Part shown: piece by piece, positions 5,767 to 38,558 of the stretch
Layout of the letters: every line of letters starts with the position of its first letter
Numbering within the stretch: position 1 is the stretch's first letter
NCBI GenBank assembly: GCA_018267825.1
Contig: JAFDXR010000010.1
Span: 1-64,000, forward strand
DNA from: Bacteroidota bacterium
GTDB lineage: Bacteria > Bacteroidota > Bacteroidia > B-17B0 > Aurantibacillaceae
Length of the DNA: 64,000 bases
Direction of reading: 5' to 3'
Position numbers and translations under genes: made by a program
The notes under the pieces: model-generated
Seen by the model: the letters and a program-made list of their open reading frames with translations, nothing else
What the model was told of the DNA's origin: nothing
Database searches by the model: none

Positions 5767-5770
5767 TAAA

Positions 5771-6298: not shown

Positions 6299-6330
6299 TG
6301 CGTGTGTAATTCGTATTTTTGCAGGGATTG

Positions 6331-6450: not shown

Positions 6451-6467
6451 GTATATAAATAATAGAT

Positions 6468-7505: not shown

Positions 7506-7530
7506 AAAATAATTGTATATTTATATTACC

Positions 7531-10749: not shown

Positions 10750-10780
10750 TAAAAAAGCCATCCCCCGGGATGGCTTTTTA
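10750..10780. terminator. bidirectional terminator between convergent genes
   Basis: AAAAAGCCATCC and GGGATGGCTTTTT arms flank a short C-rich loop, with A and T tracts on both sides. It lies between the chitinase and the oppositely oriented foldase gene and can serve both strands. Confidence 0.88.
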
Positions 10781-10797
10781 AATGAAGCGAGCTCCGA

Positions 10798-17568: not shown

Positions 17569-17641
17569 GGTACCTTAGCTCAGTTGGTAGAGCAAAGGAC
17601 TGAAAATCCTTGTGTCCCTGGTTCGATTCCTGGAGGTACCA
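17569..17641 (+). tRNA. tRNA-Phe (GAA)
   Basis: A 73-base cloverleaf: acceptor GGTACCT pairs with AGGTACC, D-loop AGCTCAGTTGGTAGAGC, anticodon arm AAGGA-CTGAAAA-TCCTT with anticodon GAA, and T-arm CTGG-TTCGATT-CCTGG-like. CCA is not encoded. The tRNA stays intact because the integrated elements entered at its 3' end. Confidence 0.95.
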
Positions 17642-19212
17642 CGTACCACCAAGTGGGGGATTTCAAACAATAGTTTGGAATCCCCCATTTTTATTTCCGC
17701 CATATCCCGCACCAAATGGGCGATGTACGTGAATACCGAATTTACTTTTGTGGTTCGACACTGGTTGATTTTTTTGCTGTAGCGGATTCCTTCAGGAAAG
17801 AGTAAAAATTGAAGCAATTGTTTGTCCTTATAAGCCATCAAACCCCACGCTTTCGGGAGGTTAGCGGCAAAGTCCATTATAATATTTACGCAATTTTCAA
17901 GGTTCGACACCCTCTTTTGGGTTTTTACAAGGTTCTTCTCCAAATCCAATCTTTCTTGCTTTAATTTCTCCGTGAACTTATTGAAAATTTCAAGGGTTAA
18001 TTCCTCATTTATTAGCCTTTCCTCCAACCTTTCGAGCTTCTTTTCAATCTCCACAATTTGGCGTTTTAAGCCCTCCTTTGACTGATCCTTTTCTTTATGC
18101 TCCTTATTATAGTTTGCCATGATTTGCTTCGCCACAAAGCCCCTAATTGCGTCATTTCCGACCAAGCTAAAGGAAGCCAATACCTTCTCGAAAAACGTGT
18201 GGATTTCCCTTGCACTTTTGTTATTACCGCACCCCTTGGTGTTGCACTTGTAATAAGGGAGGTTTTTGGCTTTTACCACGTACCCCCTCATAAAGGAGCC
18301 GCAATGATCGCACCGTAAGAATCGCTTTAATGGAATATGTTCCGATTCTTCGTGGCATGAATAGCCGTGTTTATTCTCGCTTAAAATTTCATTCACTTTC
18401 AGGAACACTTCTTTTGAAACCATTTTCTCCTGATTACCTTCCACCAATTGTCCTTTCAAAGCTGAATGCGCCATAAGCCCACAATAAAAAGGGTTTCTGA
18501 AATATCCCGATAATCGCTTCTCGTCAAGTTTCAATCCGAGGGCTTCTAATCGTTCAGAAATTTCTGTATGCGTTATTCGTTCATTTGCTTTCCAATGAAA
18601 TGCCCTTTGTAAAAGTTTGCCTTTTTCATTCAGTACAATTTTACGTTTACCGTTCTCTTTAATTTCATCGTAACCGTAGGGTGCTTTATGACACCACTCT
18701 CCTTTCATTAAAGCTTCACGAACTCCTGCCATACATTTTTCTCTTCGCAACTGATTATCATACTGCGAAAAAATAATTTGAATGTTTTGTTGAAAGTCTC
18801 CACTCGATGTTGAAGCATCTCCGGGTTGCGTAACCGCAACAAGATAAATTCCTTGTTCCCTGAGTTGATCCTTAATGTAAATTGCGTTCGCACCTGATCG
18901 AGAAAATCGGTCAACGCTATAAACAATAATGTAGGAGATTTTCTCTCTACTCTTTTTTACGAATGAAAGCATCCGGTTAAACTCTTTACGTTCATCTGTT
19001 TTTGCACTTTCATAAGTTCCGCCAAAAACTCCCATCACAGAATATTGATGCTTCTTAGCGTATTCTTCACACGCCTTTCGTTGCGTCTCTAAACTGTAAC
19101 CCAGTTCTTGTTCTTTACTTGATACCCTTGTGTAAATAACACAATTGTTTGTTCGCTTAAGGTGTTGCGATTTACCCTTTGCAAACTGATCGAATAAAAC
19201 TAATCCTTTCAT
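17575..19212 (-). CDS. large serine recombinase (integrase)
   Basis: 545 residues. Resolvase domain: YTRVSSKEQ with the nucleophilic serine near residue 31, and YSVDRFSRSG near 98. Recombinase domain about 185-280, zinc ribbon about 300-350 (RCDHCG and CNTKGCG supply four cysteines), then a coiled coil to about 440. This is the standard architecture of serine integrases that catalyse one-way integration between attP and attB. The last 22 codons are antisense to the tRNA-Phe gene, so that C-terminus is host-derived and formed by integration. The start overlaps the stop of an upstream small gene by four bases (ATGA). Confidence 0.93.
   Translation of the reverse strand: MKGLVLFDQFAKGKSQHLKRTNNCVIYTRVSSKEQELGYSLETQRKACEEYAKKHQYSVMGVFGGTYESAKTDERKEFNRMLSFVKKSREKISYIIVYSVDRFSRSGANAIYIKDQLREQGIYLVAVTQPGDASTSSGDFQQNIQIIFSQYDNQLRREKCMAGVREALMKGEWCHKAPYGYDEIKENGKRKIVLNEKGKLLQRAFHWKANERITHTEISERLEALGLKLDEKRLSGYFRNPFYCGLMAHSALKGQLVEGNQEKMVSKEVFLKVNEILSENKHGYSCHEESEHIPLKRFLRCDHCGSFMRGYVVKAKNLPYYKCNTKGCGNNKSAREIHTFFEKVLASFSLVGNDAIRGFVAKQIMANYNKEHKEKDQSKEGLKRQIVEIEKKLERLEERLINEELTLEIFNKFTEKLKQERLDLEKNLVKTQKRVSNLENCVNIIMDFAANLPKAWGLMAYKDKQLLQFLLFPEGIRYSKKINQCRTTKVNSVFTYIAHLVRDMAEIKMGDSKLLFEIPHLVVRGTSRNRTRDTRIFSPLLYQLS
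17630..17642. other. left attachment-site core at tRNA-Phe 3' end
   Basis: CTGGAGGTACCAC here is repeated exactly at 55458-55470, and a shorter version, CTGGTACCAC, lies at 52595-52604. The repeats bracket the foreign block and mark where elements joined the tRNA gene. Confidence 0.75.
17654..17690 (+). terminator. hairpin downstream of tRNA-Phe, supplied by element 1
   Basis: GGGGGATTTCAAAC and GTTTGGAATCCCCC arms flank a four-base loop and are followed by a T-rich stretch. It can terminate tRNA transcription, and on the other strand lies inside the recombinase reading frame. Confidence 0.75.
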
Positions 19213-19775: not shown

Positions 19776-19943
19776 TTACTTCTTTTTTGTATAGCCGAGT
19801 TTTTCAGCTATTAATGGATTGTTATCCAACCACTTTTTTAAGTCTTGCAAAGTATAAAAGTCGTTAGACCCTTTGCTTCGGCTTGTATCATAGGATACAG
19901 TTATAACAACTGTTTTTACTTCCTCCTTTTTTATATCACTCAT
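19776..19943 (-). CDS. 55-residue hypothetical protein
   Basis: Frame MSDIKKEEVKTVVITVSYDT through to a lysine tail YTKKK, read from minus-strand bases 19943-19776. The composition (strand-like VVITVSYDT, then helix TLQDLKKWLDNNP) suggests a small folded protein. It lies directly downstream of the WG-repeat gene and directly upstream of a terminator. No family recognised. Confidence 0.6.
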   Translation of the reverse strand: MSDIKKEEVKTVVITVSYDTSRSKGSNDFYTLQDLKKWLDNNPLIAEKLGYTKKK

Positions 19944-19966
19944 TTCTTACTATCGTTTCAATTTGT

Positions 19967-20668
19967 CTATTTAATTTCAAGAATTGTTTTGCCTTGCTCA
20001 TTAATTAATTCTTTTACTCCATTAAAATTACTCACTAAGGCAATTCCATTATAGAAAGGTTCAATAAATAAATATCGTTGTGGATAAATTTCACTACCAA
20101 CTTTATTTATGTGAAACCAACCGATATGATCCTTAGCAGTGGCAATTCCTTTATGAAATACACCTAAGTCATTGAATTTATTTCCATTTAACTCTTTGCC
20201 CTCCGCATTGATATGTTGCCATCCTTCTTCGGTCTTAACACAAGCATAACCATCTTTAAAATCACCTGCATAAATGTATTTACTTTTATATGCTGGACTT
20301 CCGTCAACCTTGACATGAAAATACTTGTCCTCCTTGTCTCTGACACTGCATAAGTCCTCCTGAAAGTTACCTGTCCATTTATAAATAACATTTGATAATG
20401 GTTGCCCTTTTTCATCAATATGTAACCATCCGTGTTCACTTATAACTGATGCCCTGTTGCAATAATATCCAAACGCCCTCAAATATCTTTGGCTGTATAT
20501 TTCATTCCCATCGGTATTGATATGATACCAACCTTCGTCTGATTTTACAGGGGCAAGTCCAGGCGCATGAAATTTGAGAGCATCTAAAAATGTTTTCCCG
20601 AATATTTGTTTGCCATTTATGGTGAAATGGGTGTTGCATTCCGCTAACCTTATGTTCTTCCAGTTCAT
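19967..20668 (-). CDS. WG-repeat protein
   Basis: 233 residues made of about six repeats with the pattern G-W-x-H-I-N/D-x-x-G, for example EGWYHINTDGNEIY, HGWLHIDEKGQPL, EGWQHINAEGKEL and IGWFHINKVGSEI. WG-repeat proteins are predicted beta-propeller-like or solenoid modules for binding; no catalytic motif is seen. It lacks a signal peptide, so it is likely cytoplasmic. It is the last large gene of a tightly packed minus-strand operon with the phosphatase and radical SAM fusions (one base separates it from the phosphatase gene). Confidence 0.82.
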   Translation of the reverse strand: MNWKNIRLAECNTHFTINGKQIFGKTFLDALKFHAPGLAPVKSDEGWYHINTDGNEIYSQRYLRAFGYYCNRASVISEHGWLHIDEKGQPLSNVIYKWTGNFQEDLCSVRDKEDKYFHVKVDGSPAYKSKYIYAGDFKDGYACVKTEEGWQHINAEGKELNGNKFNDLGVFHKGIATAKDHIGWFHINKVGSEIYPQRYLFIEPFYNGIALVSNFNGVKELINEQGKTILEIK

Positions 20669-20669
20669 T

Positions 20670-22103
20670 TTAATTTAAAAATAATTTGTTTCTCAATTTT
20701 GTAACTTCTTGTTCTGATAGTCCACAAGACTTCATAAATGGTATTATGCCTCCCGATTCCTTTATTATATTCAAAACTATATCAAGCCTTTCTTTCTTTA
20801 CATCAACTTCACTTGCTAAATAATCGTTATAAATCACATTCTCATCGGCTCCATTTAGCATGTGAAGCATTGAAATAAATATCCCTGTTCTATCCTTCCC
20901 TGCAAAACAATGAATTGCAACACTTCCTTCGTCTTCATTAATCAAAGCTTTAAAAGCCTTCAAATATGAATCTTTACAACCCATTCCAAAATATCTGTAT
21001 GCAATCTCCTCATTGTTACCATATTGATAATCTTTTTTAAACCACTCAGGTTGATTCCAAGGATCAAGCGGAGCGTGTATATAATTCACTTTACTTAATA
21101 CGGATTCGTTGTAAGGCATTTCTATTAACTCCTGATCCGCCCTCAAGTCTACAATCGTTTTTATTTTTAATGTGTTCATTAAGTCTTCAAACTTGTCATC
21201 ATTTTGAAATGCTGATAGAGTTGCAGTCCTATAAACAAAGTTCTTTTTAACCCTTGGATTAAAGGTTGCTATGTCTCTCAAATTCCAAAAATAATCTCGT
21301 TCAAAAATTGCTTCTAATGACTTTTTTACTTGATTAATTTCGCCATACTCCAGTTTTATCAACACTTCATAAAAGTAATCCAAAAGAAGTCTTTTCTTTT
21401 TATTTGCATCCGGTAAGAAAATTGACCCTGTTAGTTGATAAAATGATTTCATTTCTTCCTTATTCTCCATACCCGGAATAAAATACTTTGGAAGGAAATT
21501 AAAGCGAGTGTCATTGTGCAAAAGGTGTCTAAGCTGAACAACACAATGTAAGGCGATATTATAAAAGAAGTAAAATTTATAACCATCGCTTCTTTTATGA
21601 TTACTTGAGCAACTCTCAAACTCATAAATGAATTTCTGAACCAAGTCTTCAATTAAGTGTTTCGAATGACTTCCGATTCTGTTGTTCCCTGAGTCTCTCA
21701 CCAATTGTGCAAGGTATGATCCAATATCATAAAGAGATGGAACTCTCTGATATAAAATTGTTTCGGAAATATTGTTTATTTCACTTCCCAAATAGTTTCT
21801 ATTGATATCTTCAATTGCTTTTGAGTATCCTATTTCCAGTTTTGGTATTTCATTGAAATAAACAACGACTTTGTTTCTCATCCTGACATTAACAATTGAT
21901 AAGATTTCATTACTAAACTCTTCCTTTAGTGTATCAATTAATTTTATGACATTGAAATTGCCATTGACAATAACTTGAGTGTCAATATCTGAATTGGGAT
22001 TGACTTCGTTCCTCCCAAAAGAACCATATAGTAAGGCAATATCTATACCTTCATTTGATTCCCAAACTTTGTTTAATCGGTTTATAATATTTAGTTGTTT
22101 CAT
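20670..22103 (-). CDS. nucleotidyltransferase-tyrosine phosphatase fusion
   Basis: 477 residues with two enzymatic halves. N-terminus: LLYGSFGRNEVNPNSDID is the G-S-x(n)-D-x-D signature of the polymerase-beta/MNT nucleotidyltransferase fold (GS near 27-28, DID 39-41). C-terminus: FVYRTATLSAF and AIHCFAGKDRTGIF (near residue 400) give the CX5R phosphatase loop of the Y_phosphatase3/LipA type. The middle 200 residues are helical and unassigned. The pairing suggests a system that adds a nucleotide and removes a phosphate on one substrate, or a switch; substrates are unknown. Its start overlaps the stop of the glycosyltransferase-radical SAM gene by four bases. Confidence 0.85.
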   Translation of the reverse strand: MKQLNIINRLNKVWESNEGIDIALLYGSFGRNEVNPNSDIDTQVIVNGNFNVIKLIDTLKEEFSNEILSIVNVRMRNKVVVYFNEIPKLEIGYSKAIEDINRNYLGSEINNISETILYQRVPSLYDIGSYLAQLVRDSGNNRIGSHSKHLIEDLVQKFIYEFESCSSNHKRSDGYKFYFFYNIALHCVVQLRHLLHNDTRFNFLPKYFIPGMENKEEMKSFYQLTGSIFLPDANKKKRLLLDYFYEVLIKLEYGEINQVKKSLEAIFERDYFWNLRDIATFNPRVKKNFVYRTATLSAFQNDDKFEDLMNTLKIKTIVDLRADQELIEMPYNESVLSKVNYIHAPLDPWNQPEWFKKDYQYGNNEEIAYRYFGMGCKDSYLKAFKALINEDEGSVAIHCFAGKDRTGIFISMLHMLNGADENVIYNDYLASEVDVKKERLDIVLNIIKESGGIIPFMKSCGLSEQEVTKLRNKLFLN

Positions 22104-24403
22104 GGTTTACGCATATTACATGTTTTACATAATGGTTCATTCTTGTAGTTAGTTACGAGATTTTGATAATTTGTTCCATTTATTATCTCTCTTAATGAAG
22201 CATCTTGAATATTACCGAAGTTCCCTAACTTATCTCGCTCTTTGTCCGGAGCGCAGCAAGGTGAGATTTTCCCTGTTGCTGAAATCCAAATTTCCTTATT
22301 AAGAAAAGGGCAATTATACTGCTCAGGAACTTCTCTTTTCTCTATATCCTCAAGCGTGTAAATGTTCTCTAAAATAACTTTTTCACCATTTGGTCTTCGA
22401 TATTTATCCGCAGTTTCTATTGCATCAACAACATAATTATTCCACAATTTAATGCTATTTGAATCTGCTTTCATTGAAAGTTTCTTAATCTCTTCAAAGT
22501 GAGCCCAAAGATGATGTCCTTTGACTCTGTCTACATTAAGTTTCGCAGCAAGTTTTACTATCTCGCTTAATTCATGCATATTATTTTGCATAAAGGTTAA
22601 CTGAAATGTTATCCGACAGTAATTGCCACCCATTTTAAAGTGATTATCACGGAAAGAAACGAACTTCTCTACATTTTCCACCGCCTCCTTAAAGTCAATT
22701 CCAATCATTACTTTTTCGGATGTTTCTTTTGTAGCACCGTTCCAGGAGATTTTTACATCACTGGTGTTTGGCACTATTGTTTTTGCCCAATCTTCTACGC
22801 TCTTCTTTGGGAATGTACCATTTGTAGTTAGGTTTATTTTAATATCATTTTGCTGAGCCAGTTCATAAATTTTTTCAATCCCTTTATACAATAAAGGTTC
22901 GCCCATTGTAGATGGAATGATTTCTTTAACACCTAATTCTTTTGCTTGCACAAATATTTTATCGAGCCATTCGACAGGCATTCGACGTCTTTTTATGCCA
23001 GTCTCTTTGTATAAATTATCAATGTACTTGCTAAACTGACTGTGTTCTTCACACATCGTACAACTTAGATTACAATCTTCAGGGTTGGTATCGATTGTAA
23101 TTCTCCCTAAATCATTATTTTTTTTGCTCTTCTTAATATCATTATAGATACTTAATAGATCATTACAATGCCTTTTTATCTCAGGTACTTTCCCGTCCGT
23201 ACTAAATAAATAACCTCTCTTACCAAGTTCTATCATCTGAATTTTATTTTCGATAGCCCACTGCATTTGTTCACTTAAACTTACTGCGTCTCTGTGTGTA
23301 AACAGCAAGCCATTAACTTTATGATTAACATACTCCTTCATTCCACCATAATTTGCCGTAATTACAGGAATGTGACACGCCTGTGCTTCATGAATAACTA
23401 ACGGAGAGTTCTCTCCCCAGATTGAAGGAACGACAATACAGTCAACCTGCGAAAACACTTCATCAGCAAGATTTTTATTTATGTATTCTCCTTTAAACTC
23501 TATTGGCAATCCTACTTCTTGAGCCTTCTGAACCAAAGCCTTGGTACTTCTTTGATCCTTCCAACCCCAAATTTTCAATACTGCTTTGCCTTTTAGTTTC
23601 AAATAAGCATCTATCAGAAGATTTACTCCTTTAGCCGGAATATGAGTACCTATGTATCCAAAAGTGAATAATTCACTTTGTGCCTTCTTTACATGTGGTG
23701 TCAAATAGTGAGTTGGGAAACCATAATCCATGTAGCGTATTTTTTCAGGATTAATTCTAAACTCATCAACAAACCGATTTCTTAAATACATAGAGGGTGC
23801 TATAAACAAATCAACCTTGTTTACTATTTCTCTCGTTTCCTTCATTCTTGAAGCAATCCAGTCAGACCAAAATGAAATGTCTTTTTGTAAATTATCCTCT
23901 TGCCCAGTAAAATAGGCGTTATAGCAATTAGTGGCACATTTTTTATTTTCCTGTTTATCGCAGAGTTGAAGATGATTAGCGTTTCCAAAGTTGCGTTGTA
24001 AAAATTGCCCTCTCGGACACATAAGCCAAAAATCGTGAAGTGTAAAGATTACAGATATCCTCCTTTTTTTTAGTTCATCTACTATCCCTGTAGATAGGTG
24101 ATTTAAATGCCCGATGTGTGCAATATCAGGTTTAATTTCGTCAACAATTTTTCCGAAGATATCATCTAATTCACTATGGCGGAATCCATCTTTTCCTTGC
24201 GCCATATTTGCAAAGAAAATAGTTAGGTTATTATTTACTGATTCCTTCCTAATTGTGAAGTCAGGCAAATAAGCATTCTCTTCTCTTGTGAAAACATATA
24301 CCTCATTGCTTTGAGATAACTCTTCACAGATTGATTGACTATAAACTTCTGATCCTGCATTATAAAGTGGCGGGTATCCGTGTATGATTTTTAGAATTCT
24401 CAT
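22100..24403 (-). CDS. glycosyltransferase family 4-radical SAM/SPASM fusion
   Basis: 767 residues. Residues 1-430 form a GT-B glycosyltransferase: N-terminal HGYPPLYNAGSEVYSQ, FGYIGTHIPAKGVNLLIDAY as the donor-domain start, and CIVVPSIWGENSPLVIHEAQACHIPVI as the conserved E-x7-E-like donor-binding region. A radical SAM domain follows with CNLSCTMC near 441-448 as the 4Fe-4S site. The end is SPASM-like: NCPFL near 696, ISPCCAP near 715 and LCKTCNMRKP at the end supply auxiliary cluster cysteines. Such a fusion would couple sugar transfer to radical chemistry on a peptide or carbohydrate; no substrate is identifiable. Confidence 0.88.
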   Translation of the reverse strand: MRILKIIHGYPPLYNAGSEVYSQSICEELSQSNEVYVFTREENAYLPDFTIRKESVNNNLTIFFANMAQGKDGFRHSELDDIFGKIVDEIKPDIAHIGHLNHLSTGIVDELKKRRISVIFTLHDFWLMCPRGQFLQRNFGNANHLQLCDKQENKKCATNCYNAYFTGQEDNLQKDISFWSDWIASRMKETREIVNKVDLFIAPSMYLRNRFVDEFRINPEKIRYMDYGFPTHYLTPHVKKAQSELFTFGYIGTHIPAKGVNLLIDAYLKLKGKAVLKIWGWKDQRSTKALVQKAQEVGLPIEFKGEYINKNLADEVFSQVDCIVVPSIWGENSPLVIHEAQACHIPVITANYGGMKEYVNHKVNGLLFTHRDAVSLSEQMQWAIENKIQMIELGKRGYLFSTDGKVPEIKRHCNDLLSIYNDIKKSKKNNDLGRITIDTNPEDCNLSCTMCEEHSQFSKYIDNLYKETGIKRRRMPVEWLDKIFVQAKELGVKEIIPSTMGEPLLYKGIEKIYELAQQNDIKINLTTNGTFPKKSVEDWAKTIVPNTSDVKISWNGATKETSEKVMIGIDFKEAVENVEKFVSFRDNHFKMGGNYCRITFQLTFMQNNMHELSEIVKLAAKLNVDRVKGHHLWAHFEEIKKLSMKADSNSIKLWNNYVVDAIETADKYRRPNGEKVILENIYTLEDIEKREVPEQYNCPFLNKEIWISATGKISPCCAPDKERDKLGNFGNIQDASLREIINGTNYQNLVTNYKNEPLCKTCNMRKP

Positions 24404-24709
24404 TTAATTTAAGACTTGTAAATAATAGTTTTGCTTTTTTATTATGTGTGTTAAGACGTTTGAATAGAATGCCCTTATGAGTTTCCCTTCCTTTATTACT
24501 ATACATAAATTGGGCAATTCCATTTTTTCAGGTAATGAAAGTTTATTACGTTTTAGCCATTGGTATCTTGCAATCAAAACTGTGTTTTCTTTTAAGTACT
24601 TTTTTTTGGATGATGCAATAATTGTTCTAATCGCTTTTTGATCCGGAATTGTTTTCGAAGCTTGACAATGTCCATTTGAACTAATTGAAAATTTATCTGT
24701 TTCTATCAT
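24404..24709 (-). CDS. 101-residue protein heading the fusion-enzyme operon
   Basis: First gene of the minus-strand operon; its stop abuts the start of the glycosyltransferase-radical SAM gene. The sequence is lysine-rich with two cysteines and hydrophobic strands near the end (LCIVIKEGKLIRAFYSNVL). No family recognised. It could be a substrate or carrier for the enzymes downstream, but no leader/core peptide pattern is evident; a small regulatory or binding protein is equally possible. Confidence 0.6.
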   Translation of the reverse strand: MIETDKFSISSNGHCQASKTIPDQKAIRTIIASSKKKYLKENTVLIARYQWLKRNKLSLPEKMELPNLCIVIKEGKLIRAFYSNVLTHIIKKQNYYLQVLN

Positions 24710-24799
24710 TTTTGTTTTTTCATAACAATAGACTATATCCGTGCCATTACAGAGCCTAAATTGTAATTAGCTGCATATCAATGCTATGGTGATTTGTAA

Positions 24800-24816: not shown

Positions 24817-24841
24817 AATTAGAAATATGTATCTTTATTTC

Positions 24842-25906
24842 ATGAATAAGAAATTCGAAGAAGAAATTAAGGATCAGCATCCACTTAGAAAAGCTGCATT
24901 AGAAAAGCTGTACTACTTTATGGCTAACCCAGGAAGATTCTCCTTGCTTGTTATTGGCGAGAGAGGAACAGGAAAATCACGTTGGATAAAACAAATTAGT
25001 GAAATTCTTAAAGAAGAGAAGGTACAATTTGCGAACAAGTTCGTTGAGGCATCGTGCGCTTCATTTAATCACGACAACGCTGAAGCGGATATTTTCGGAT
25101 ATGAGCCGCACGCTTTCACAAATGCGAATCCTAAAGGCCATAACGGTCTATTAATGCAAGCTGACAAAGGTTTTTTATTCCTTGACGAGGTGCATCATCT
25201 TGATGATCGTGTAAAATCAAAACTTCTCACAGCAATGCAAACTGTTGGTAGTGGAAAAGAGAAAGGAAAATTTTCCTTACGTAGAATGATGGGTGATGAG
25301 ATTCATTATGTTTCGGTGCGTCCAATTTTTGGAAGTAACAGAAGTATTTCAGAGTTGAAAAACGAGACACTACTGCCTGATTTCTATGACCGAATAGCGC
25401 AGTTGGTAGTAAAACTTCCTTCTATTTCAGAGACAAGAGAAGCTGTAAAGCCTGATTTCATGTTAGTTTGGGAAGGGATGAAGTTCAATGAAGCAAAGGG
25501 GTATGAATATCTTAAACCACCATCAATTTCGGATTTCTATAATTGGTTATCCCTATTGCCACTTGATGGAAATTTTAGAGACTTACAAACAGTTTCAATT
25601 CTTTGGATGACCTATTGGAAGATTGTTCAAACCGAATTTAAAAATTTGAACATTAATGATAAGGAGAAAAAAATATTTGAACTCGTAAAAGGGGATTTTG
25701 AAAAATTCAACTTAACCTCAAAGATTGAATTACCTCACAGCATTGATGTTACAAGACCATTTGAAGAACATTACAACGCTTTAAAAAAAGTGTATGCAAA
25801 AACTATTTCTCAAAACCCAGATTTCAAAAATATTAAGCAAGGAGATTTAGTTTTTGAAACTGGAAAAACGAAAAAGACGATTGAAAAATGGTTATCAATA
25901 ATATAA
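24842..25906 (+). CDS. AAA+ ATPase of the sigma-54-activator type
   Basis: 354 residues from the second ATG (24842); an ATG at 24827 sits inside a possible promoter box. Walker A GERGTGKS is at 39-46, Walker B FLFLDE at 111-116, sensor-like FGSNRS near 160 and an arginine-bearing FYDRIAQLVVKLPSISETRE as in enhancer-binding ATPases. The sigma-54-contact loop that normally reads GAFTGA is HAFTNA (90-95), so transcription activation through sigma-54 is doubtful. There is no N-terminal sensory domain; a short C-terminal segment may be a vestigial helix-turn-helix. It probably acts as the remodelling or sensing ATPase of the adjoining methyltransferase-MORC-Z1 operon, from which 131 bases separate it. 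Confidence 0.82.
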   Translation: MNKKFEEEIKDQHPLRKAALEKLYYFMANPGRFSLLVIGERGTGKSRWIKQISEILKEEKVQFANKFVEASCASFNHDNAEADIFGYEPHAFTNANPKGHNGLLMQADKGFLFLDEVHHLDDRVKSKLLTAMQTVGSGKEKGKFSLRRMMGDEIHYVSVRPIFGSNRSISELKNETLLPDFYDRIAQLVVKLPSISETREAVKPDFMLVWEGMKFNEAKGYEYLKPPSISDFYNWLSLLPLDGNFRDLQTVSILWMTYWKIVQTEFKNLNINDKEKKIFELVKGDFEKFNLTSKIELPHSIDVTRPFEEHYNALKKVYAKTISQNPDFKNIKQGDLVFETGKTKKTIEKWLSII

Positions 25907-26037: not shown

Positions 26038-27387
26038 ATGCTAAAATTCATAGATTTATTTGCAGGACTTGGAGGCTTTCATAAAGCCTTGCATGAATTA
26101 GGGCATGAGTGCGTATTTGCGAGTGAACTTGATCCTAACTTAAGAAAATTATATAAAGAAAATTGGGGAATAAGACCTGAAGGAGATATAAGAATGATTA
26201 CAAATAAAGTCATTCACGTTATTCCCAAGCACGACATTTTATGCGCTGGTTTTCCCTGTCAGCCGTTTTCTAAAGCAGGAAAGCAATTAGGAAGAGAAGA
26301 TAAAGAAAGAGGTACTTTATTTGATGATATTATAAAAATTCTTTCTTACAGAAAACCTAAATATTTCATTTTGGAAAATGTCCCGTTCATTGCTAAACAT
26401 GACAATGAAGAGACGTGGCTTTATATGAAACGCCAACTTGAGAAACTCGGGTATGAAGTTGATCACAGAAATTATTCCCCTCATGATTTTGGCGTCCCAC
26501 AACACAGATTAAGAATTTTCATCGTTGGTTCGCTTAGAGGGTTAAAGCACTTTAGTTTTGATAACATTGATAAGCTAAAAACGGGCTTAAGTGAAAATGA
26601 TATATATAATTTTATAGAAGATAATCCTATCACCGCAAAAAAATTGCCCAAGAAAAATATTGAGTGTTTAAAACTATGGCAAGAATTTATTGATGCTTTA
26701 CCAAATGACGTTAAAATACCTGGCTTCCCAATTTGGAGTATGGAATTCGGAGCTACATACCCTTATGAAGAAACTTTCCCTCATAAAATGTCTGCAAATA
26801 AACTTGCTGAATACCGAGGAAATTTTGGAGTATCATTAAGTGGCTTAAGCAAGGAGGATCAATTCCAACTATTACCAAGTTATGCGAGAGTTGAAGATGA
26901 ATTTCCTGATTGGAAAAGAAGATACATTGCGAACAACCGCAAGTTCTATCAGGAGAATAAAAAGTTCATAAGAGATATCGTTAAACAAATTTCGAACTAC
27001 GACTCTCAAAGTTGGCAAAAATTAGAATGGAATGTTGGTGATGGGGAACGTAAATTGAAAAATTACATTATTCAGTTCAGGGCATCTGGAATCCGTGTTA
27101 AAAAGGTTGATTTCTTTCCATCGTTAGTTTGCACTAATACACAAATACCAATTATCGGTTGGGAAAAAAGATATATTTCAAGAGAAGAAGGGTTGAAATT
27201 ACAATCCTTAGAAGGAATTGAACTGCCTGAATTAGACAACCCGGCGTTTAAAGCTTTAGGAAATGCTGTTAATTCTAAAATAGTTAAGATGATTGCAAAG
27301 GAACTTATCTATGTGAGAAAAAAGAAACCACTTAACGGAAAAGCTCATACAAAAACGAAAAAGAAAAAAGAGTATGAAACAGCCTGA
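26038..27387 (+). CDS. C5 cytosine DNA methyltransferase of the MORC module
   Basis: 449 residues. Motif I DLFAGLGGFHKAL, motif IV GFPCQPFSKAG with the catalytic cysteine at 74, motif VI FILENVPF and the C-terminal motif X-like ALGNAVNSKIVKMI are all present; a long target-recognition region of about 200 residues lies between. It transfers methyl groups to cytosine C5 and most likely protects host DNA from the nuclease encoded downstream. Its last codons overlap the MORC ATPase start by 14 bases. It is a different sequence from the second C5 methyltransferase at 46.3 kb. Confidence 0.92.
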   Translation: MLKFIDLFAGLGGFHKALHELGHECVFASELDPNLRKLYKENWGIRPEGDIRMITNKVIHVIPKHDILCAGFPCQPFSKAGKQLGREDKERGTLFDDIIKILSYRKPKYFILENVPFIAKHDNEETWLYMKRQLEKLGYEVDHRNYSPHDFGVPQHRLRIFIVGSLRGLKHFSFDNIDKLKTGLSENDIYNFIEDNPITAKKLPKKNIECLKLWQEFIDALPNDVKIPGFPIWSMEFGATYPYEETFPHKMSANKLAEYRGNFGVSLSGLSKEDQFQLLPSYARVEDEFPDWKRRYIANNRKFYQENKKFIRDIVKQISNYDSQSWQKLEWNVGDGERKLKNYIIQFRASGIRVKKVDFFPSLVCTNTQIPIIGWEKRYISREEGLKLQSLEGIELPELDNPAFKALGNAVNSKIVKMIAKELIYVRKKKPLNGKAHTKTKKKKEYETA

Positions 27388-28918
27388 AAAAGTTAGCATA
27401 AGACCGCAAGTAACTATGCTCTCTGTTCTAAAATTCTTGGAATATGAGACATGGTTTGCTTTAGCTGAATTCGTTGATAATGCTATAGCAAGTTATCTAA
27501 ACAATGAAATTGCTCTTAAGAAAATTGAAGGGAATGATTTCAAATTATTAGTGACCATTGAAATCAACGAACCTGAAAATAAAATTACAATTAGAGATAA
27601 TGCGGCAGGTATAAATGCGAGTGATTATCCCAGAGCATTCAGAGCTGCTGAGATTCCAATGGATAATTCAGGACTATCGGAATTTGGAATGGGTATGAAA
27701 TCTGCTTCTTGTTGGTTTGCCGATGAGTGGAAAGTCACAACCACGGCACTTGGGGAAGATGTGGAAAAGTGTATTCGGTTCGATATGAAAAAAATTTATG
27801 AAGATAAATTGGAGGAGTTAGAAGTTGAGGCAAAACCGTGTAATAAAAATCATCATTATACTACCATAGAACTTTTTAATGTTAGCAGAATGCCAAGACG
27901 TAGAGGCATTGGGAAAGTTAAGGATCATTTAAAAAGTATTTACAGGGAGTTTATTCGCAAAGGAATTCTTACCTTAAAGGTAGACGGTGAAGTGCTAACA
28001 TATACCGAGCCCAAAATATTAAAAGTACCAAGGTATGACGATCCTAAAGGTGAACCTGTTCTTTGGAAGAAAGAGATTTCATTCCCAATTGAGGACGGGT
28101 TAAGTGTTCATGGTTTCGTTGCCATAAGAGAAAAGGCATCCACAGCAGAAGCAGGATTTGCTTTATTTAGGAGAGGCCGTGTTATCGAAGGTAGTTTTGA
28201 TAATGGTTTTAGACCTGAATTTATTTTTGGTAATCCTAATAGCTTCAGATACCAAAGGGTTTTTGGCGAATTACACTTGGAAGGCTTTGACGTTAGCTTT
28301 ACAAAAAAAGGAATACAGTGGGATGAGAATTTAGACGTTTTTTTGAGGTTGCTTAAAGATGATCTAAGTAATAAAGAATTCCCACTACTGCAACAAGCCG
28401 AACAATATAGGGTTAGAGCAACTGAAAAGGAATACCAAGCTGCAAAAAAAGCATTGGATGAAACGGTAAGCGATTTTGAAAAGAAAGCTCCACAAGCTGT
28501 TGCAGATGTGGTTAACGCTTCCACGCAGGTAGTTTCAATTCCAGAACACAAAGAATTAATAAAGACTGATAAAACTTTACATAGGGAATTTGAAATACGG
28601 TTTAATAAAGTAAACTGGAAAGTTTCTCTTGAACTATCTTATGACCCATCCCTAAAAGAGTTGATAGAAGTTGGCGATAGTTTTATTAAAGAAAAAACTC
28701 AAGACCAATCTGTTCGACAAATTGGCATCAGACTTTCTCTTACTCACCCATTCATGGTTGAGTTTGCTGGAACAGATACGAACAAAATTGAACCTATTTT
28801 GCGGATAGCCGCTGCTTTTGGATTATCAGAAGTTATTGCTAAAGAAGGGCCAAAAATTATTGGAGATGTGAGACGTAATTTCAACGAACTCATTTCAAAT
28901 TTATCAAAACCAAATTAA
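27374..28918 (+). CDS. MORC/MutL-type GHKL ATPase
   Basis: 514 residues. The Bergerat ATP-binding fold shows EFVDN (E32, N36), RDNAAGI (D75) and FGMGMKSAS (105-110) as the N, G1 and G2 boxes. A ribosomal S5-like domain region follows, including the lysine-bearing FRRGRVIEGS. Prokaryotic MORC-like ATPases of this kind are known in operons with DNA methyltransferases, Z1 ATPases and PD-(D/E)XK nucleases, where an ATP-driven clamp is thought to act on DNA. Gene spacing to the Z1 gene is one base. Likely role: ATP-gated DNA engagement within a restriction-like system. Confidence 0.88.
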   Translation: MKQPEKVSIRPQVTMLSVLKFLEYETWFALAEFVDNAIASYLNNEIALKKIEGNDFKLLVTIEINEPENKITIRDNAAGINASDYPRAFRAAEIPMDNSGLSEFGMGMKSASCWFADEWKVTTTALGEDVEKCIRFDMKKIYEDKLEELEVEAKPCNKNHHYTTIELFNVSRMPRRRGIGKVKDHLKSIYREFIRKGILTLKVDGEVLTYTEPKILKVPRYDDPKGEPVLWKKEISFPIEDGLSVHGFVAIREKASTAEAGFALFRRGRVIEGSFDNGFRPEFIFGNPNSFRYQRVFGELHLEGFDVSFTKKGIQWDENLDVFLRLLKDDLSNKEFPLLQQAEQYRVRATEKEYQAAKKALDETVSDFEKKAPQAVADVVNASTQVVSIPEHKELIKTDKTLHREFEIRFNKVNWKVSLELSYDPSLKELIEVGDSFIKEKTQDQSVRQIGIRLSLTHPFMVEFAGTDTNKIEPILRIAAAFGLSEVIAKEGPKIIGDVRRNFNELISNLSKPN

Positions 28919-28919
28919 A

Positions 28920-31172
28920 ATGACTGAAGTAATTGAAGTACAAAATACAAATTCAGAGCAATCGTGGACTCCTTTTGTTGGGGAGGAAACAACAGGATTA
29001 CTACGCAGCAAGGGATTTGCAAATGCCGAAGGAATTTTCAATGAACCCGGACAAAGGATTCTTGATGAGACTTATCGAATAATGCAAGTTTGTGGCAATC
29101 CTAATTCAGCGGAGAATAGTGAAACTGGAATTGTAATTGGCTATGTGCAAAGTGGGAAAACACTATCCTTTACCACGTTAACAGCGTTAGCTCGAGATAA
29201 CAATTACAGAATTGTAATTGTTTTAGGCGGTACAACAAAAAACCTCCTTGAACAATCAACTGACCGATTGCGTGGGGATTTGCGAATTGATACTCGCTAC
29301 GGATTTGAGCAAAAGTGGACTCAGTTGATTAATCCGGAAACTCAAGAAGACTTTGATACAATTACGAATGCTTTAGATCAATGGTCAAATCCCACTTACC
29401 CCAAAGATAGATGCCGCACTATCTTAATTACTGTAATGAAAAACGGTAATCGACTAAGGAATTTGACCGAATTATTTGATGGGATAAACCTTCAAGGAGT
29501 GCCAACACTTATCATTGACGATGAGGGAGATCAAGCAAGTTTAAATACAAGAGCTGCATGGGCTGCAAGGCAAGGAATCGACATAGAAGACTTAACAGAG
29601 AACGATGTTTCTACTATTTATAGGAGAATTACCGCTTTGAGAAATACTTTCCCTCACCATACATTTTTACAGTACACAGCAACTCCACAAGCGAACCTTT
29701 TCATTAACATATTAGATAGATTGTCTCCAAACTTCATCAAACTTTTGACACCCGGTGGCGATTATACTGGAGGGATTACTTTCTTTCACGAAAATCCAAA
29801 CTTAATCGTGGAAATTCCTCCAGCCGATTTACCAACAAACCAACCGCTTCATGAGCCTCCTGATAGTTTACTCAGAGCACTCAAGTATTTTTATTTGGGT
29901 GTAGTTGCTGGAACAGTTCTTCAATCATATCGATTGCATGGACAACGAAATAGGTCTATGTTGATTCATCCATCAAGACTTCAGGGAGATCATATTACAT
30001 TTTACAGTTGGATCAATAATATTAAAGAGGGTTGGAGAAGATTGCTTTCGGGCGAAAACAACGAGGAAAAGGCACAACTCTTAAGTGAATTTAGAATTGT
30101 ATATAATGATCTTCAAATGACTGTCGCTGATTTGCCTCCGTTTGAACAATTAACTGATTTTAATTTAGTCCATGCTATACAATATACTCCAATTATAGAG
30201 GTTAATGCAAGACGGGGAGCAACACCACAAATAAATTGGCAGCAAAATTATTCATGGATATTAGTTGGAGGTCAATCAATGGATCGCGGTTTTACCGTAG
30301 AAGGTTTAACTGTTACTTATATGCCAAGAAATATTGGTGTAGGAAATGTTGATACAATTCAACAAAGGGCTCGTTTCTATGGTTATAAAAGAAGTTACTT
30401 AGGATATTGCAGAGTCTTTTTAGATCAGGTTACTATTGATTCGTATAACAGCATTGTTGAACACGAAGAGGACGTCCGAGAGCAATTAGAAGAGTTCAAT
30501 GTTAACAATAGGCCACTAAATGATTGGGAAAGAAAGACAGTTTTGGACGGAATGCTGAATTTAACAAGGGCTAATGTTTTGTATGATGACTTAGATCGTG
30601 ATCGTTTTGGAGAAGAGTGGTTTCGAATTAATGCTCCTCATGACACAGAAGAGTATATTGACACCAACAGAGAAGCAGTATTTAACTTTCTTTCTCCAAA
30701 AGCAAATCAGTTCAATGTGGATGCTGGGCATCTCCAAAGAACAAATGAACAAAAGCATTTAACCGCATCACTATCATTAAATGACGTGCTTGAGAATTTG
30801 TTGAATAATCTCCGCTTTACAAGAGAAAGTGATTCTGCAACATATTCAAGTCTGAGAGGTATACTAAAAAGATATTTGAGAGAAAACCCTAATGAACAAT
30901 GCTTAATATATTTAATGAGTGCATCATCCATTGAAAATTGGACAAGAAGAACAAGGAGATTAAAGAACAATGAAATTCAGCAACTATTCCAAGGTCGAAA
31001 CCCTCGTGTGGGTGAAGTCATATACCCAGGAGATTCTGAAATTAAAAATCCGAATCTTTTAACGATTCAAATACATCTACTTGATTTTAGAGACACGAAT
31101 TATACAAGTGTACCAACACTTGCAATTTGGATTCCGGAACATATTAGTCAAGATATTATAAGACAGGCATGA
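28920..31172 (+). CDS. Z1-domain helicase-like ATPase
   Basis: 750 residues. P-loop GYVQSGKT at 74-81, Walker B-like LIIDDEGDQAS near 198, motif III-like QYTATPQ near 250, and the Z1 signature GGQSMDRGFTVEGLTVTY near 448 followed by an arginine motif QQRARFYGYK. This is a superfamily 2-like ATPase typical of conflict operons with MORC ATPases and PD-(D/E)XK enzymes. It is expected to translocate on or remodel DNA. The start follows the MORC stop by one base and its stop overlaps the nuclease start (ATGA), indicating strict co-translation. Confidence 0.9.
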   Translation: MTEVIEVQNTNSEQSWTPFVGEETTGLLRSKGFANAEGIFNEPGQRILDETYRIMQVCGNPNSAENSETGIVIGYVQSGKTLSFTTLTALARDNNYRIVIVLGGTTKNLLEQSTDRLRGDLRIDTRYGFEQKWTQLINPETQEDFDTITNALDQWSNPTYPKDRCRTILITVMKNGNRLRNLTELFDGINLQGVPTLIIDDEGDQASLNTRAAWAARQGIDIEDLTENDVSTIYRRITALRNTFPHHTFLQYTATPQANLFINILDRLSPNFIKLLTPGGDYTGGITFFHENPNLIVEIPPADLPTNQPLHEPPDSLLRALKYFYLGVVAGTVLQSYRLHGQRNRSMLIHPSRLQGDHITFYSWINNIKEGWRRLLSGENNEEKAQLLSEFRIVYNDLQMTVADLPPFEQLTDFNLVHAIQYTPIIEVNARRGATPQINWQQNYSWILVGGQSMDRGFTVEGLTVTYMPRNIGVGNVDTIQQRARFYGYKRSYLGYCRVFLDQVTIDSYNSIVEHEEDVREQLEEFNVNNRPLNDWERKTVLDGMLNLTRANVLYDDLDRDRFGEEWFRINAPHDTEEYIDTNREAVFNFLSPKANQFNVDAGHLQRTNEQKHLTASLSLNDVLENLLNNLRFTRESDSATYSSLRGILKRYLRENPNEQCLIYLMSASSIENWTRRTRRLKNNEIQQLFQGRNPRVGEVIYPGDSEIKNPNLLTIQIHLLDFRDTNYTSVPTLAIWIPEHISQDIIRQA

Positions 31173-32149
31173 ATTTGATAGAACTATTTGATTCGTTAAA
31201 TATTCCCGAAGAAAAAAGTGTTGTTACTTTTAATGCTACCCCTATTCCTGAATTTTCAAGTTTCAGAATTGCAGTAAATTGTGAAGGATACCCTGTTCTA
31301 TTAATTCCAACAGATAATTCTATTAGAAGCCTTGCATTTAAAAATTTCAAATTAAAATATCTTCAGTTAGAACAAAGTATAGAATGTAAGATAACAGAGT
31401 CGGGAAATGAAACTACTAATAAATTTACTGTTATAACATTCACAAGTAATGAAAGGGGGTTGCAAGAATATTTTTTAAAAATCTCCGAAACATTTATAAA
31501 AACGCTAAATACTAAAGCTAACTCACAACAAATAATAGATGCTTTAATTCGTTTTGTTGAAGTTTTTAGAGCTTTAAATGAATTACCAACAAAGACTGTA
31601 CAAGGATTATGGTCGGAATTGTTTTTTATTTATAATTCTAAAAATCCGGAAGTGCTATTAAACTATTGGCATAATCTTCCCGAAGAAAAGTTTGATTTTA
31701 ATTTTGGAGTAGAAAAAATAGAAGTCAAAAGTAGTGCATCTATGGAACGCATTCATATTTTCGCATCGGAACAATTAAATCCTTTGGAGGATCAACAGGT
31801 GCTGATTGTGTCTTTATTTGTTAGACCAAGTAATACTGGTATTTCAATCGAGAATTTAGTTGATTTTATTTCGAATAAGGTGAAAGACCCGGATTTAATT
31901 CAAAAACTAAATTCTATTGTCGGTCGTACGCTCGGATCAACATTAGAACAGTCTATTGGTTTGAAATATGACTTACAAATAGCCAAGGAATCTTGTAAAT
32001 TATATCGACATCAAGACATTAAAAAGATTGAGAAAGTGGATATTCCTGATGAAGTCCATGAAGTAAAATATAAGTCAGACTTAACCCATGTCAGTTCAAT
32101 AGACATAACTACCCTAACGAACAAGCAAATACTATTTCAATCAATATAA
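31169..32149 (+). CDS. PD-(D/E)XK motif nuclease (DUF4420 type)
   Basis: 326 residues. The central region KFDFNFGVEKIEVKSSAS near 172-190 carries the D...E-x-K catalytic pattern of the PD-(D/E)XK fold, and the flanking sequence (LWSELFFIYNSKN before, HIFASEQLNPLEDQQ after) is typical of the DUF4420 nuclease family that accompanies Z1 proteins. It is the probable cleaving subunit of the module, with host DNA protected by the methyltransferase. Two bases separate it from the next gene. Confidence 0.87.
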   Translation: MNLIELFDSLNIPEEKSVVTFNATPIPEFSSFRIAVNCEGYPVLLIPTDNSIRSLAFKNFKLKYLQLEQSIECKITESGNETTNKFTVITFTSNERGLQEYFLKISETFIKTLNTKANSQQIIDALIRFVEVFRALNELPTKTVQGLWSELFFIYNSKNPEVLLNYWHNLPEEKFDFNFGVEKIEVKSSASMERIHIFASEQLNPLEDQQVLIVSLFVRPSNTGISIENLVDFISNKVKDPDLIQKLNSIVGRTLGSTLEQSIGLKYDLQIAKESCKLYRHQDIKKIEKVDIPDEVHEVKYKSDLTHVSSIDITTLTNKQILFQSI

Positions 32150-32151
32150 TT

Positions 32152-32901
32152 ATGATGACAAAAGATCAAATAGCCAACATCATTGACCCACAATTTCCAA
32201 TGGTATATGCTCCAACTACAGAGCCCACAAAACTTATTTTTGAGGACGGTACTGAAATGGTTGGATATTTTCAGCACACAAAAAATTCTGATGAACTTGA
32301 AAAGCAAAACAAATTCACTTTCGTAGAGTTTGGGGAAAAAGCACAAAAATTTAGGGCAACTCAAGATGATTCTTTTGTCACTACAATAGATGCTAACTTG
32401 CTTAAAAATGTTGAATACCCTTCATATTCAGGGATTTTAAAAGAACGTCTTAAAAAAATTGAGGAAATTTTGAATGAGGCTCCTAAAAGGAATTGGCCGG
32501 AGTACAAGAACAAATGGGTTGAAGATGTCAAAAACATTATCAATACAGTAATGTACAAATGGCTTAATGACTATGAGCGTGAAGGTTTTTTAAAGTTCAG
32601 TCTACTGACTGCGAAAAGATTTGAAACAAATCTTGGCGAGTACTTAATTCCAGTACTGGAAATTAGTTTTAAAAATGGAAGCACCGTTGTGCTTGATCCG
32701 ATTGCCGGAGTTACTTCTGATTATAATGGAAGAATCGATTTCTACTTAATGGGGAATGTTTACAAAAAAGTTTCCATATTAAGAAAGATAATGGAAACTG
32801 GGGAAACTGTTTGGATTTATGCGAAGAATTACGATACTCGAACTCATTTCCCATTAGGAGAGCAATTATTCATAAAACAAATTAATGAATGGTTACAATA
32901 G
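32152..32901 (+). CDS. unknown protein of the MORC-Z1 operon
   Basis: 249 residues, no recognised domain. The N-terminal part has short strands around DGTEMVGYFQHT and a helical middle; the last 90 residues (GEYLIPVLEISFKNGSTVVLDPIAGVTSD, YNGRIDFYLMGN) look like a beta-rich domain. It overlaps the HEPN gene by 13 bases in another frame, so they are probably produced together; it could neutralise or direct the HEPN protein, which is inference. Confidence 0.72.
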   Translation: MMTKDQIANIIDPQFPMVYAPTTEPTKLIFEDGTEMVGYFQHTKNSDELEKQNKFTFVEFGEKAQKFRATQDDSFVTTIDANLLKNVEYPSYSGILKERLKKIEEILNEAPKRNWPEYKNKWVEDVKNIINTVMYKWLNDYEREGFLKFSLLTAKRFETNLGEYLIPVLEISFKNGSTVVLDPIAGVTSDYNGRIDFYLMGNVYKKVSILRKIMETGETVWIYAKNYDTRTHFPLGEQLFIKQINEWLQ

Positions 32902-33449
32902 AAAATGAGGATTTAAGACTTATCTACCATAGTGTTTTGACAATTAAAAATATCCTTGATAGGGATTTACCAAGGGTTAGCGTAGAAAAAAGTTATTTAG
33001 ATAACCTTGTTCCACAAGGTTTAAAAGGTGTCTATTCTCAAAAACAAAATTCTGCATTGACATTTGTAGATTCAATCACTTCCCTTCATTATGATTCCTC
33101 AGTTGTTTCTCTTGTTACTGCATTTGAAAAAATTGTATTTGCCAAATATCGAACCTCCTACGGAGCTATTAAAACTGTAGTTAACGAAAAAGCAGAACAC
33201 CCACTTGATTATTACCATTCAAGAGAAAGATTTGTAAACACAGGCATTGATAAACTCGCCGGAATTTTTTATTTAATTGAGGGGATTATTGATCAAGATA
33301 CAATGGAAAAATTAAATATTATTAAAGATCACAGAAATTATATCGTTCATGGAAAGAGAGATAGCACCCCACCATCGGTAGAGTTCGAATTGGATGATAT
33401 TGCTAAAGTTCTTGATAAAGCTATTTCAGAAATCTCACTAAGAGAATAA
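32889..33449 (+). CDS. HEPN-domain protein ending the MORC-Z1 operon
   Basis: 186 residues, helical. The motif DHRNYIVHGKRD near 148-156 is the R-N-x3-H (RX4H) active-site signature of HEPN domains, many of which are metal-independent RNases in toxins and phage-defence systems. An upstream helix (YDSSVVSLVTAFEKIVFAKY) fits the first HEPN helices. It overlaps the 249-residue gene and closes the operon. A suicide or back-up RNase arm for the restriction module is the attractive reading, yet a non-catalytic regulatory HEPN cannot be excluded. Confidence 0.75.
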   Translation: MVTIENEDLRLIYHSVLTIKNILDRDLPRVSVEKSYLDNLVPQGLKGVYSQKQNSALTFVDSITSLHYDSSVVSLVTAFEKIVFAKYRTSYGAIKTVVNEKAEHPLDYYHSRERFVNTGIDKLAGIFYLIEGIIDQDTMEKLNIIKDHRNYIVHGKRDSTPPSVEFELDDIAKVLDKAISEISLRE

Positions 33450-36349: not shown

Positions 36350-36850
36350 ATGGCAAGCATTAAAAAAATACTGTTGAGTTTAGGCATAGGAGGAGGCTTG
36401 GTAGCAGGGGGAGCGTATCTGTGGAGATTGAATAAGACCTCGGTGAACCTGGAGATTGTTCCGACAGCGAAATTGCACAAAGTGGATTTGCAGGGTGTGG
36501 TTATCAGAGTAGATGTGCAATTGAAAAATCCAACCCGGACTGGATTAAAGCTGAAGTTCCCTTTTATTAAGCTCTTATCGAAAGGGAGCAGCATAGGAAG
36601 TTCGCAATCTGTCAATCAGGACATAGCACTTCCTGCATTCGGAGAGGCAAAGTTTGAAGCGATAATGTTACGCATTCCAATGTTCAGCCTCCTCTCTACT
36701 GCCAAAGATTTACTGCAAGCAGTAAAAAACGGTGAAGCTTTTCAGATCGGTGTAACGACCATGACAACAATTGACTTGGGTTGGAAAAAAGTTCCTTATG
36801 AAAAAACAGATGAAGTACAGTTAATCGGAGCAAAGAATGGAAGCAACTAA
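36350..36850 (+). CDS. membrane-anchored beta-rich protein (LEA-like domain)
   Basis: 166 residues. An N-terminal anchor rich in glycine (ILLSLGIGGGLVAGGAYLW) is followed by a beta-sandwich resembling LEA14/WHy domains (VDLQGVVIRVDVQLKNPTRTGLKLKFPFIKLL). It starts directly after the previous stop and overlaps the next gene by 14 bases. Similar glycine-rich single anchors occur in several other products of this operon, fitting proteins of an internal viral membrane. Confidence 0.68.
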   Translation: MASIKKILLSLGIGGGLVAGGAYLWRLNKTSVNLEIVPTAKLHKVDLQGVVIRVDVQLKNPTRTGLKLKFPFIKLLSKGSSIGSSQSVNQDIALPAFGEAKFEAIMLRIPMFSLLSTAKDLLQAVKNGEAFQIGVTTMTTIDLGWKKVPYEKTDEVQLIGAKNGSN

Positions 36851-38531: not shown

Positions 38532-38558
38532 AAGAACAAACGAATAAAAAGAAAGAAA

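Follow-up and report, generated by a model that had tools for sequence, protein, structure and literature searches.

A recurrent operon of Bacteroidota centred on a glycosyltransferase-radical SAM protein, a candidate small-molecule pathway under predicted sigma54 control

The window analyzed here is a stretch of 64,000 nucleotides from a Bacteroidota bacterium of the family Aurantibacillaceae (GenBank assembly GCA_018267825.1, contig JAFDXR010000010.1, positions 1 to 64,000 of the forward strand). It contains a close-packed run of genes for a GT4 glycosyltransferase fused to a radical SAM/SPASM enzyme (GT4-rSAM), a nucleotidyltransferase fused to a tyrosine-type phosphatase (NTase-PTP), a WG-repeat protein and a small protein of 101 residues, with a gene for an AAA+ regulator transcribed in the opposite direction. 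On balance, we consider it probable that these genes make up an inducible operon that synthesizes a small glycoside- or nucleoside-like metabolite and travels on mobile elements. Our confidence that the pathway belongs to the small-molecule class is fair to good; it is low for any specific product and moderate at best for an antiviral or conflict purpose. Across related loci, the core of the operon is the GT4 and radical SAM/SPASM protein, a 233-residue WG protein and one phosphatase, often accompanied by an O-methyltransferase or a carbamoyltransferase.

Gene content and conservation of the operon

An initial annotation, made from the sequence alone, had proposed five close-packed minus-strand open reading frames (ORFs) as an undescribed set of enzyme fusions that could build a modified peptide or a sugar-nucleotide, or act as a conflict system. 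This interpretation is partly supported by our analysis. All five ORFs were found at the coordinates given (Table 1), and Pfam bore out the GT4, Radical_SAM and SPASM domains, the NTase and Y_phosphatase3 domains, and the WG repeats. The gaps between the first four genes are 0, -4 and +1 bases, and these four larger genes recur as a set in about 75 loci, most of them in Bacteroidota, but the 55-residue ORF had no relative across all related loci compared. Neither this ORF nor the 101-residue one had a Pfam match.

A scan of 84,980 genomes for GT4-rSAM relatives gave 70 loci, nearly all in Bacteroidota, and a plasmid search found relatives on three Arsenophonus plasmids; no confirmed relative of the protein was found in viral contigs. 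The prevalence of the operon is low and patchy, with GT4-rSAM in six of 87 genomes of the window's family, 2 of 395 in a sample of the phylum and 3 of 397 in another family. Co-occurrence was analyzed by clustering all ORFs in 75 loci, and downstream genes were counted in the 61 loci with at least 3.5 kb of downstream sequence, upstream genes in the 55 with enough upstream sequence. The initial annotation had expected a real system to recur on mobile elements and its own proposal to fall if homologues of the fused genes did not co-occur. Indeed, the domains do co-occur, with GT4-rSAM and the WG protein together in 53 of the 61 loci, an association beyond chance. Exactly one phosphatase class was present in 51 of 61. 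Of the classes, a 189-residue histidine phosphatase occurs in 23 loci, the NTase-PTP fusion in 22, a stand-alone PTP in 6 and a second histidine phosphatase in 4; the fusion that occupies the phosphatase slot in the window is only one of four interchangeable solutions. In one locus (L023), NTase and PTP are separate genes; similarly, the GT4 and radical SAM halves form a single gene in 44 entries and a pair of neighbouring genes in 21. A maximum-likelihood tree of 65 GT4-rSAM proteins (quick method, with support from the Shimodaira-Hasegawa-like approximate likelihood ratio test, SH-aLRT, only) implied at least 16 switches of phosphatase class, 16 gains or losses of the methyltransferase and 25 changes of activator type. 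These repeated switches between PTP-type and histidine-type folds argue that the required activity is phosphate removal and not one particular protein.

The catalytic residues of GT4-rSAM are invariant in 41 fused relatives (mean identity 71%): the GT4 motif E331-x7-E339 and the radical SAM motif C444-x3-C448-x2-C451 are intact, and C596, C698, C716, C717, C759 and C762 are invariant or nearly so. The HC-x5-R motif of the PTP is invariant in 22 of 22 sequences, the GS/DxD motif of the NTase is kept in 21 of 22, and the RH motif of the histidine phosphatase in 33 of 33. Curated matches of the NTase were few and weak and included lincosamide and ANT(9) aminoglycoside nucleotidyltransferases, MntA and HalB. 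The WG protein has a near-constant length and a mean identity of 56%. In Arsenophonus (L086:10227-11936) and Wolbachia phage WO (L099:12040-13635) it is fused to the O-methyltransferase, which is independent evidence that these two proteins work together. The O-methyltransferase of relatives (320 residues, Methyltransf_2 type with a dimerization domain) is present in 26 of 61 loci and absent from the window. Other tailoring enzymes in relatives include a NodU-like carbamoyltransferase (6 of 61 loci) and an aminoglycoside phosphotransferase (APH)-like kinase, and the Arsenophonus plasmids encode PhyH-like and serine hydroxymethyltransferase (SHMT)/transaldolase-like enzymes. Within one operon relative (L067:12803-13669), an APH-like kinase gene is followed by a second, short radical SAM gene.

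Matches to curated families and structures were limited. Among the NCBIfam radical SAM families listed, none was matched above its cut-off by the radical SAM half (the best score, 77.9 bits vs. 380, was for TIGR04317), and a comparison with solved structures turned up no GT4 match at E 1e-6 and, for radical SAM, no more than a weak match (5v1q, E 9e-4). For the operon's four genes PADLOC returned only weak cross-matches, with no strong match to a named anti-phage system.

Table 1. Features of the operon and its surroundings in the window.
Feature	Coordinates	Strand	Evidence or remark
GT4 + radical SAM/SPASM fusion, 767 aa, anchor gene	22100..24403	-	Pfam Glycos_transf_1, Radical_SAM, SPASM above cut-off
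NTase + CX5R tyrosine-type phosphatase fusion, 477 aa, phosphatase slot	20670..22103	-	Pfam Polbeta/NTP_transf_2, Y_phosphatase3
WG-repeat protein, 233 aa	19967..20668	-	Pfam WG_beta_rep
Small protein, 101 aa, first gene after promoter	24404..24709	-	Relatives in other loci; folded model
55-aa ORF, judged outside the system	19776..19943	-	No relative in related loci
Divergent AAA+ sigma54 activator, short form without CARF, RtcR/PspF-type, 359 aa	24827..25906	+	Sigma54_activat; PADLOC RtcR_PspF1
Putative sigma54 -24-type element TGGCAC	24741..24746	-	YGGYAY core at matching place in related promoters
Putative upstream activator palindrome TGATATGCA (family consensus TGANNNTCA)	24772..24780	-	34 bases upstream of TGGCAC
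Large serine recombinase, from the mobile element that carries the operon	17575..19212	-	At tRNA-Phe 17569-17642
MZA-like defence module, neighbour, outside the operon	26038..33449	+	C5 methyltransferase, MzaB-/MzaC-like (PADLOC), weak MzaD match

A divergent activator of the RtcR/CARF lineage

The plus-strand gene at 24827-25906, a neighbour of the MZA-like module, is part of the system, which therefore extends beyond the limits set in the initial annotation. Its product matched Pfam Sigma54_activat (84.8 bits vs. a cut-off of 20.2) and PADLOC RtcR_PspF1 (E 2e-44), and 34 of 55 loci have a homologue transcribed divergently from the GT4-rSAM operon. Among the 87 genomes of the window's family, the four best activator matches (E 0 to 3e-52) all lie directly beside a GT4-rSAM gene, and the other matches (E about 1e-35 or weaker) involve the general sigma54 ATPase domain only. 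About half of the activators are long (about 600 residues) and match PADLOC CARF_AAA_HTH (E about 1e-76). The N-terminal 290 residues of a long activator were modelled by AlphaFold with a confidence score (pLDDT) of 88.7, and the top PDB matches of this model were nearly all CARF proteins (Csm6, Cdn1, Can2, Card1, Csa3, ring nucleases), at modest TM-scores of 0.3-0.4. Judged from the model, the long activators carry a CARF domain. No long activator was found in broad Bacteroidota samples, which contained no positive control; the search of the 87 family genomes served as the control.

Some short activators have lost the GAFTGA loop, and the divergent promoters were compared accordingly, keeping in mind that the loci are related and the counts not independent: the YGGYAY core of a sigma54 -24 element is found in 20 of 25 promoters with a loop-bearing activator vs. 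none of eight with a loop-less one, and 11 of 25, vs. none of eight and 0.12% of shuffles, have the palindrome TGANNNTCA, with no more than one mismatch, at a distance of exactly 34 bases upstream of the core. In the window, TGATATGCA and TGGCAC are 34 bases apart, and rpoN (sigma54) is encoded in this genome. On this sequence evidence, confidence is fair to good that the operon is controlled by the divergent sigma54 activator.

Several loop-less short AAA+ proteins (in L011, L013, L015 and L027) keep a helix-turn-helix (HTH)-like C-terminus, and at least L013 has a different palindrome, TTTGGCAAATATTTGCCAAA, near the start of the loop-less protein's own gene, with a similar one in L027. It is possible that these proteins have shifted from sigma54 activators to another kind of regulator. 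Saprospira grandis (L061) has both a divergent long CARF activator and a short loop-less AAA+ protein inside the operon (5592-7418 and 10764-11666).

RtcR binds and senses tRNA pieces with a 2',3'-cyclic phosphate (PMC7790460), and other CARF-AAA activators, encoded outside rtc operons, have been described beside restriction systems (PMC4012209) and CoCoNuTs (PMC11090510). These RtcR-like CARF-AAA-HTH activators lie divergent from or adjacent to the operon they control. The activator family of the window has the AAA+ sigma54 domain, the HTH-like C-terminus and this divergent or adjacent placement in common with them, while their N-terminal CARF domain is matched in the long relatives and not in the window's copy. 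They are known or proposed to control rtcBA RNA repair, restriction-modification and CoCoNuTs; no biosynthetic operon was found as a target in the literature searched. CARF-type sigma54 control of such an operon would widen the scope of these sensors, which are known from RNA repair and their link to restriction.

Proposed pathway and competing readings

In the pathway that we favour, and as far as the enzyme families can tell, the retaining GT4 domain would join an activated sugar to a phosphate-bearing acceptor. The radical SAM/SPASM domain would then perform radical C-H chemistry on the sugar part (oxidation, epimerization or C-C bond making), the phosphatase would strip the phosphate, and the O-methyltransferase and the NodU/CmcH-type carbamoyltransferase would decorate the product where present. 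The WG protein would act in the same pathway, close with the methyltransferase. A retaining GT4 enzyme often has a partner phosphatase, which strips the phosphate from the first-formed glycoside, sucrose-phosphate synthase and its phosphatase being an example in glycoside biosynthesis. PolH and PolJ of polyoxin biosynthesis are a radical SAM enzyme followed by a phosphatase (PMC5365060), the former acting on a phosphorylated sugar compound and the latter dedicated to it, a pair that serves here as an analogy of logic only. From this precedent and the GT4-phosphatase pairing we infer a small glycoside- or nucleoside-like product, and the earlier idea of a sugar-nucleotide stands to the extent that a sugar- or nucleotide-type small molecule fits the enzymes. 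An intracellular site of action is probable for the product, since no exporter was seen in these operons of Bacteroidota. Transcription would depend on sigma54 and the divergent AAA+ activator of the RtcR/CARF lineage. Full-length activators would use their CARF domain to detect infection or RNA damage through a nucleotide or RNA-end signal; the short form of the window lacks this sensor. The purpose would most likely be antiviral or conflict chemistry comparable to the 3'-deoxy-3',4'-didehydro-nucleoside triphosphates (ddhNTPs) of viperin, which is a guess. Concrete predictions about the product follow from the choice of phosphatase, the optional tailoring enzymes and the viperins of two operons.

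These viperins are one link to conflict. A true viperin gene lies between the small gene and GT4-rSAM in Flavobacterium lacus (L019, 7128-7988; gaps of +1 and +12 bases) and in Bacteroidia MS502-39 (L045, 7144-8013; gaps of +1 and -13 bases), and these proteins score 288 bits vs. a curated NCBIfam cut-off of 180. The GT4-rSAM protein itself is not a prokaryotic viperin (pVip): its pVip match (E 4.5e-9) reflects general radical SAM similarity only, the viperin family NF038283 was not among its listed NCBIfam matches, and it differs by its SPASM-type C-terminus. Genes of type I restriction (REase_I), McrBC, prokaryotic Argonaute (pAgo), PsyrTA, Dpd and Lmu-like systems flank operon loci, which may be a further hint of conflict. 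The CARF-type regulators, the viperins and part of the neighbouring genes are consistent with a conflict role, as raised in the initial annotation. A bolder version, in which a CARF/sigma54 sensor of RNA-damage or infection signals turns on a new antiviral small-molecule pathway that makes a modified glyconucleoside or an aminoglycoside-like inhibitor beside viperin, with the Undecim Cluster of Wolbachia as a phage-borne version of the same chemistry, is tentative and in our judgement more doubtful than not. If true, it would give this long-unexplained and highly expressed Wolbachia cluster its first defined function.

Several observations weigh against the proposed operon function. Substrate, product and exact reaction are presumed from the enzyme families. 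The radical SAM domain sits in no curated subfamily among those listed, and for this reason a sugar as its substrate is a supposition. The window's activator (359 residues) has lost the CARF domain, and its loop reads HAFTNA, compared with NAFTGA in the close relative L043 and GAFTGA in most long relatives. In many loci the adjacent activator is missing or lacks the loop. The viperin is limited to two loci, housekeeping genes are mixed with the defence genes in the same flanks, and expression of the Undecim Cluster in Wolbachia is reported to be constitutively high (PMC12801941), a poor fit to an infection-induced role there.

The closest known system, the Undecim Cluster of Wolbachia phage WO (WD0611-WD0621), consists of eleven genes of unknown function, for which a role in polysaccharide synthesis, methylation and export has been suggested, and it has been transferred between Wolbachia, Rickettsia, Cardinium and Phycorickettsia (PMC9203015). 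The Undecim WO UC3 GT-radical SAM fusion is 48.5% identical to that of the window over its full length. The next gene, published under methylation, encodes a WG-O-methyltransferase fusion whose WG part is 44.5% identical to the window's WG protein, the methyltransferase being absent in the window. Like the mobile operon of the window, the Undecim and Arsenophonus clusters are phage- or plasmid-borne, and they have moved between bacteria. The additional Undecim genes (epimerase, PhyH-like, ABC transporter, threonine aldolase-like, UDP-glucose dehydrogenase, permease) are absent from the window operon and from the gene clusters that recur at the Bacteroidota loci; beside the Undecim Cluster we found neither a phosphatase nor a small protein nor an AAA+ activator. 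The window has the GT4-rSAM and WG core in common with it, with NTase-PTP, small protein and activator of its own. Undecim and Arsenophonus sequences group on a separate, supported branch of our tree; with most of the eleven genes missing as well, the window operon is a distant cousin of the Undecim Cluster and not a member. The claim that no described system has this gene set was therefore nearly correct, except that the GT-radical SAM fusion and the WG/methyltransferase pair were known from Undecim. We found no paper describing the Bacteroidota operon or its CARF/sigma54 control. Through the common core, the Undecim Cluster gains free-living relatives in Bacteroidota that can be cultured and are open to genetics and metabolite analysis.

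The role suggested for Undecim leads to the strongest rival, a cell-surface glycan pathway that modifies lipopolysaccharide or exopolysaccharide. Besides that published suggestion (PMC9203015), the GT4 domain, an NAD-dependent epimerase in Arsenophonus and Wolbachia, and GlmU-like and UDP-glucose 6-dehydrogenase genes in phage WO are in line with it, as is a 229-residue protein of a second operon copy in the window's genome, which resembles a glycosyltransferase by eye (DxD) though it had no NCBIfam match. However, no polymerase, flippase or exporter was recognized among the recurrent Bacteroidota operon genes, and the window operon holds no surface-glycan genes. Methyltransferases and carbamoyltransferases of small-molecule type, the CARF-type activator and a viperin in the same operon also speak for other chemistry, and we regard a surface glycan as unlikely.

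Less likely still is that the enzymes modify or repair tRNA or rRNA under an RtcR-like activator that answers to broken RNA. The tRNA pieces sensed by RtcR (PMC7790460), the CARF-AAA activators at these loci, the NTase domain in part of them and the WG protein as a possible scaffold would suit RNA repair. Against it, no RNA ligase, kinase or RNA-binding domain was recognized with Pfam, the methyltransferase belongs to the small-molecule Methyltransf_2 family, and the NTase is dispensable.

The small protein bears on a further rival, a cluster for a ribosomally synthesized and post-translationally modified peptide (RiPP), in which the 101-residue protein would be the radical SAM substrate. SPASM-type radical SAM enzymes often act on peptides, and the small gene lies directly upstream of GT4-rSAM without a gap. 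Clustering and tblastn found eight relatives of this protein in other loci of the genome scan, and a second, related family occupies the same place, yet small genes of these kinds lie near only 21 of 55 loci. These proteins are conserved along their length with a fixed C-terminus and no variable core or other precursor-like feature, the 101-residue protein is modelled as folded (AlphaFold pLDDT 80.5), and no RiPP radical SAM model reached its cut-off. We therefore rejected a peptide substrate role, and with it the modified-peptide product of the initial annotation; a RiPP-like cluster is very unlikely. The folded model had no PDB fold match. A BrnT/RelE-like toxin was considered from an H..WDR pattern seen by eye in the sister family and the RtcR-CoCoNuT precedent, and is at most possible, with no Pfam, PADLOC or PDB fold match to support it; an LmuA-like match (E 4.5e-4) was judged to be chance. 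One locus has the two diverged small-protein families in tandem (L008:7057-7359 and 7467-7769).

Finally, an NTase toxin-antitoxin pair of the MntA/HepT kind with the other genes merely nearby, to which the weak NTase matches to MntA, HalB and PADLOC PDC-S09 point, is the least probable of these readings, as the NTase forms part of a phosphatase fusion and most loci lack it but keep the other operon genes, NF047752 gave only 21.9 bits vs. a cut-off of 60, and no HEPN partner was recognized with Pfam.

Mobile context and neighbouring genes

The serine recombinase family found beside the window operon also adjoins the operon in relatives L007 and L043. The same genome carries a second, non-orthologous copy of the operon (G000:C32:76629-80841; L081, L098) at 64% identity, with a histidine phosphatase and the extra 229-residue protein. 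This copy sits in a prophage-like element, and its neighbours are mostly 65-93% identical to window genes at 42320-48474. Two non-orthologous copies in two related prophage-like elements indicate that the operon is recurrent cargo. The one candidate from a search for attachment (att) sites, a repeat of 13 bases of the tRNA end at 55458, is not convincing alone.

Further along the window, positions 36350-50639 hold a viral-looking block with a transglutaminase-like protein, amidase/endolysins, DNA methylases and a RecA-like ATPase. Its presumed structural genes had almost no PHROG or phage-record match, and the block may be a provirus of a kind not yet described. Downstream of the MZA-like module, an HTH and metallopeptidase protein (33563-34597) has a strong PADLOC match to RmrA (E 2e-60).

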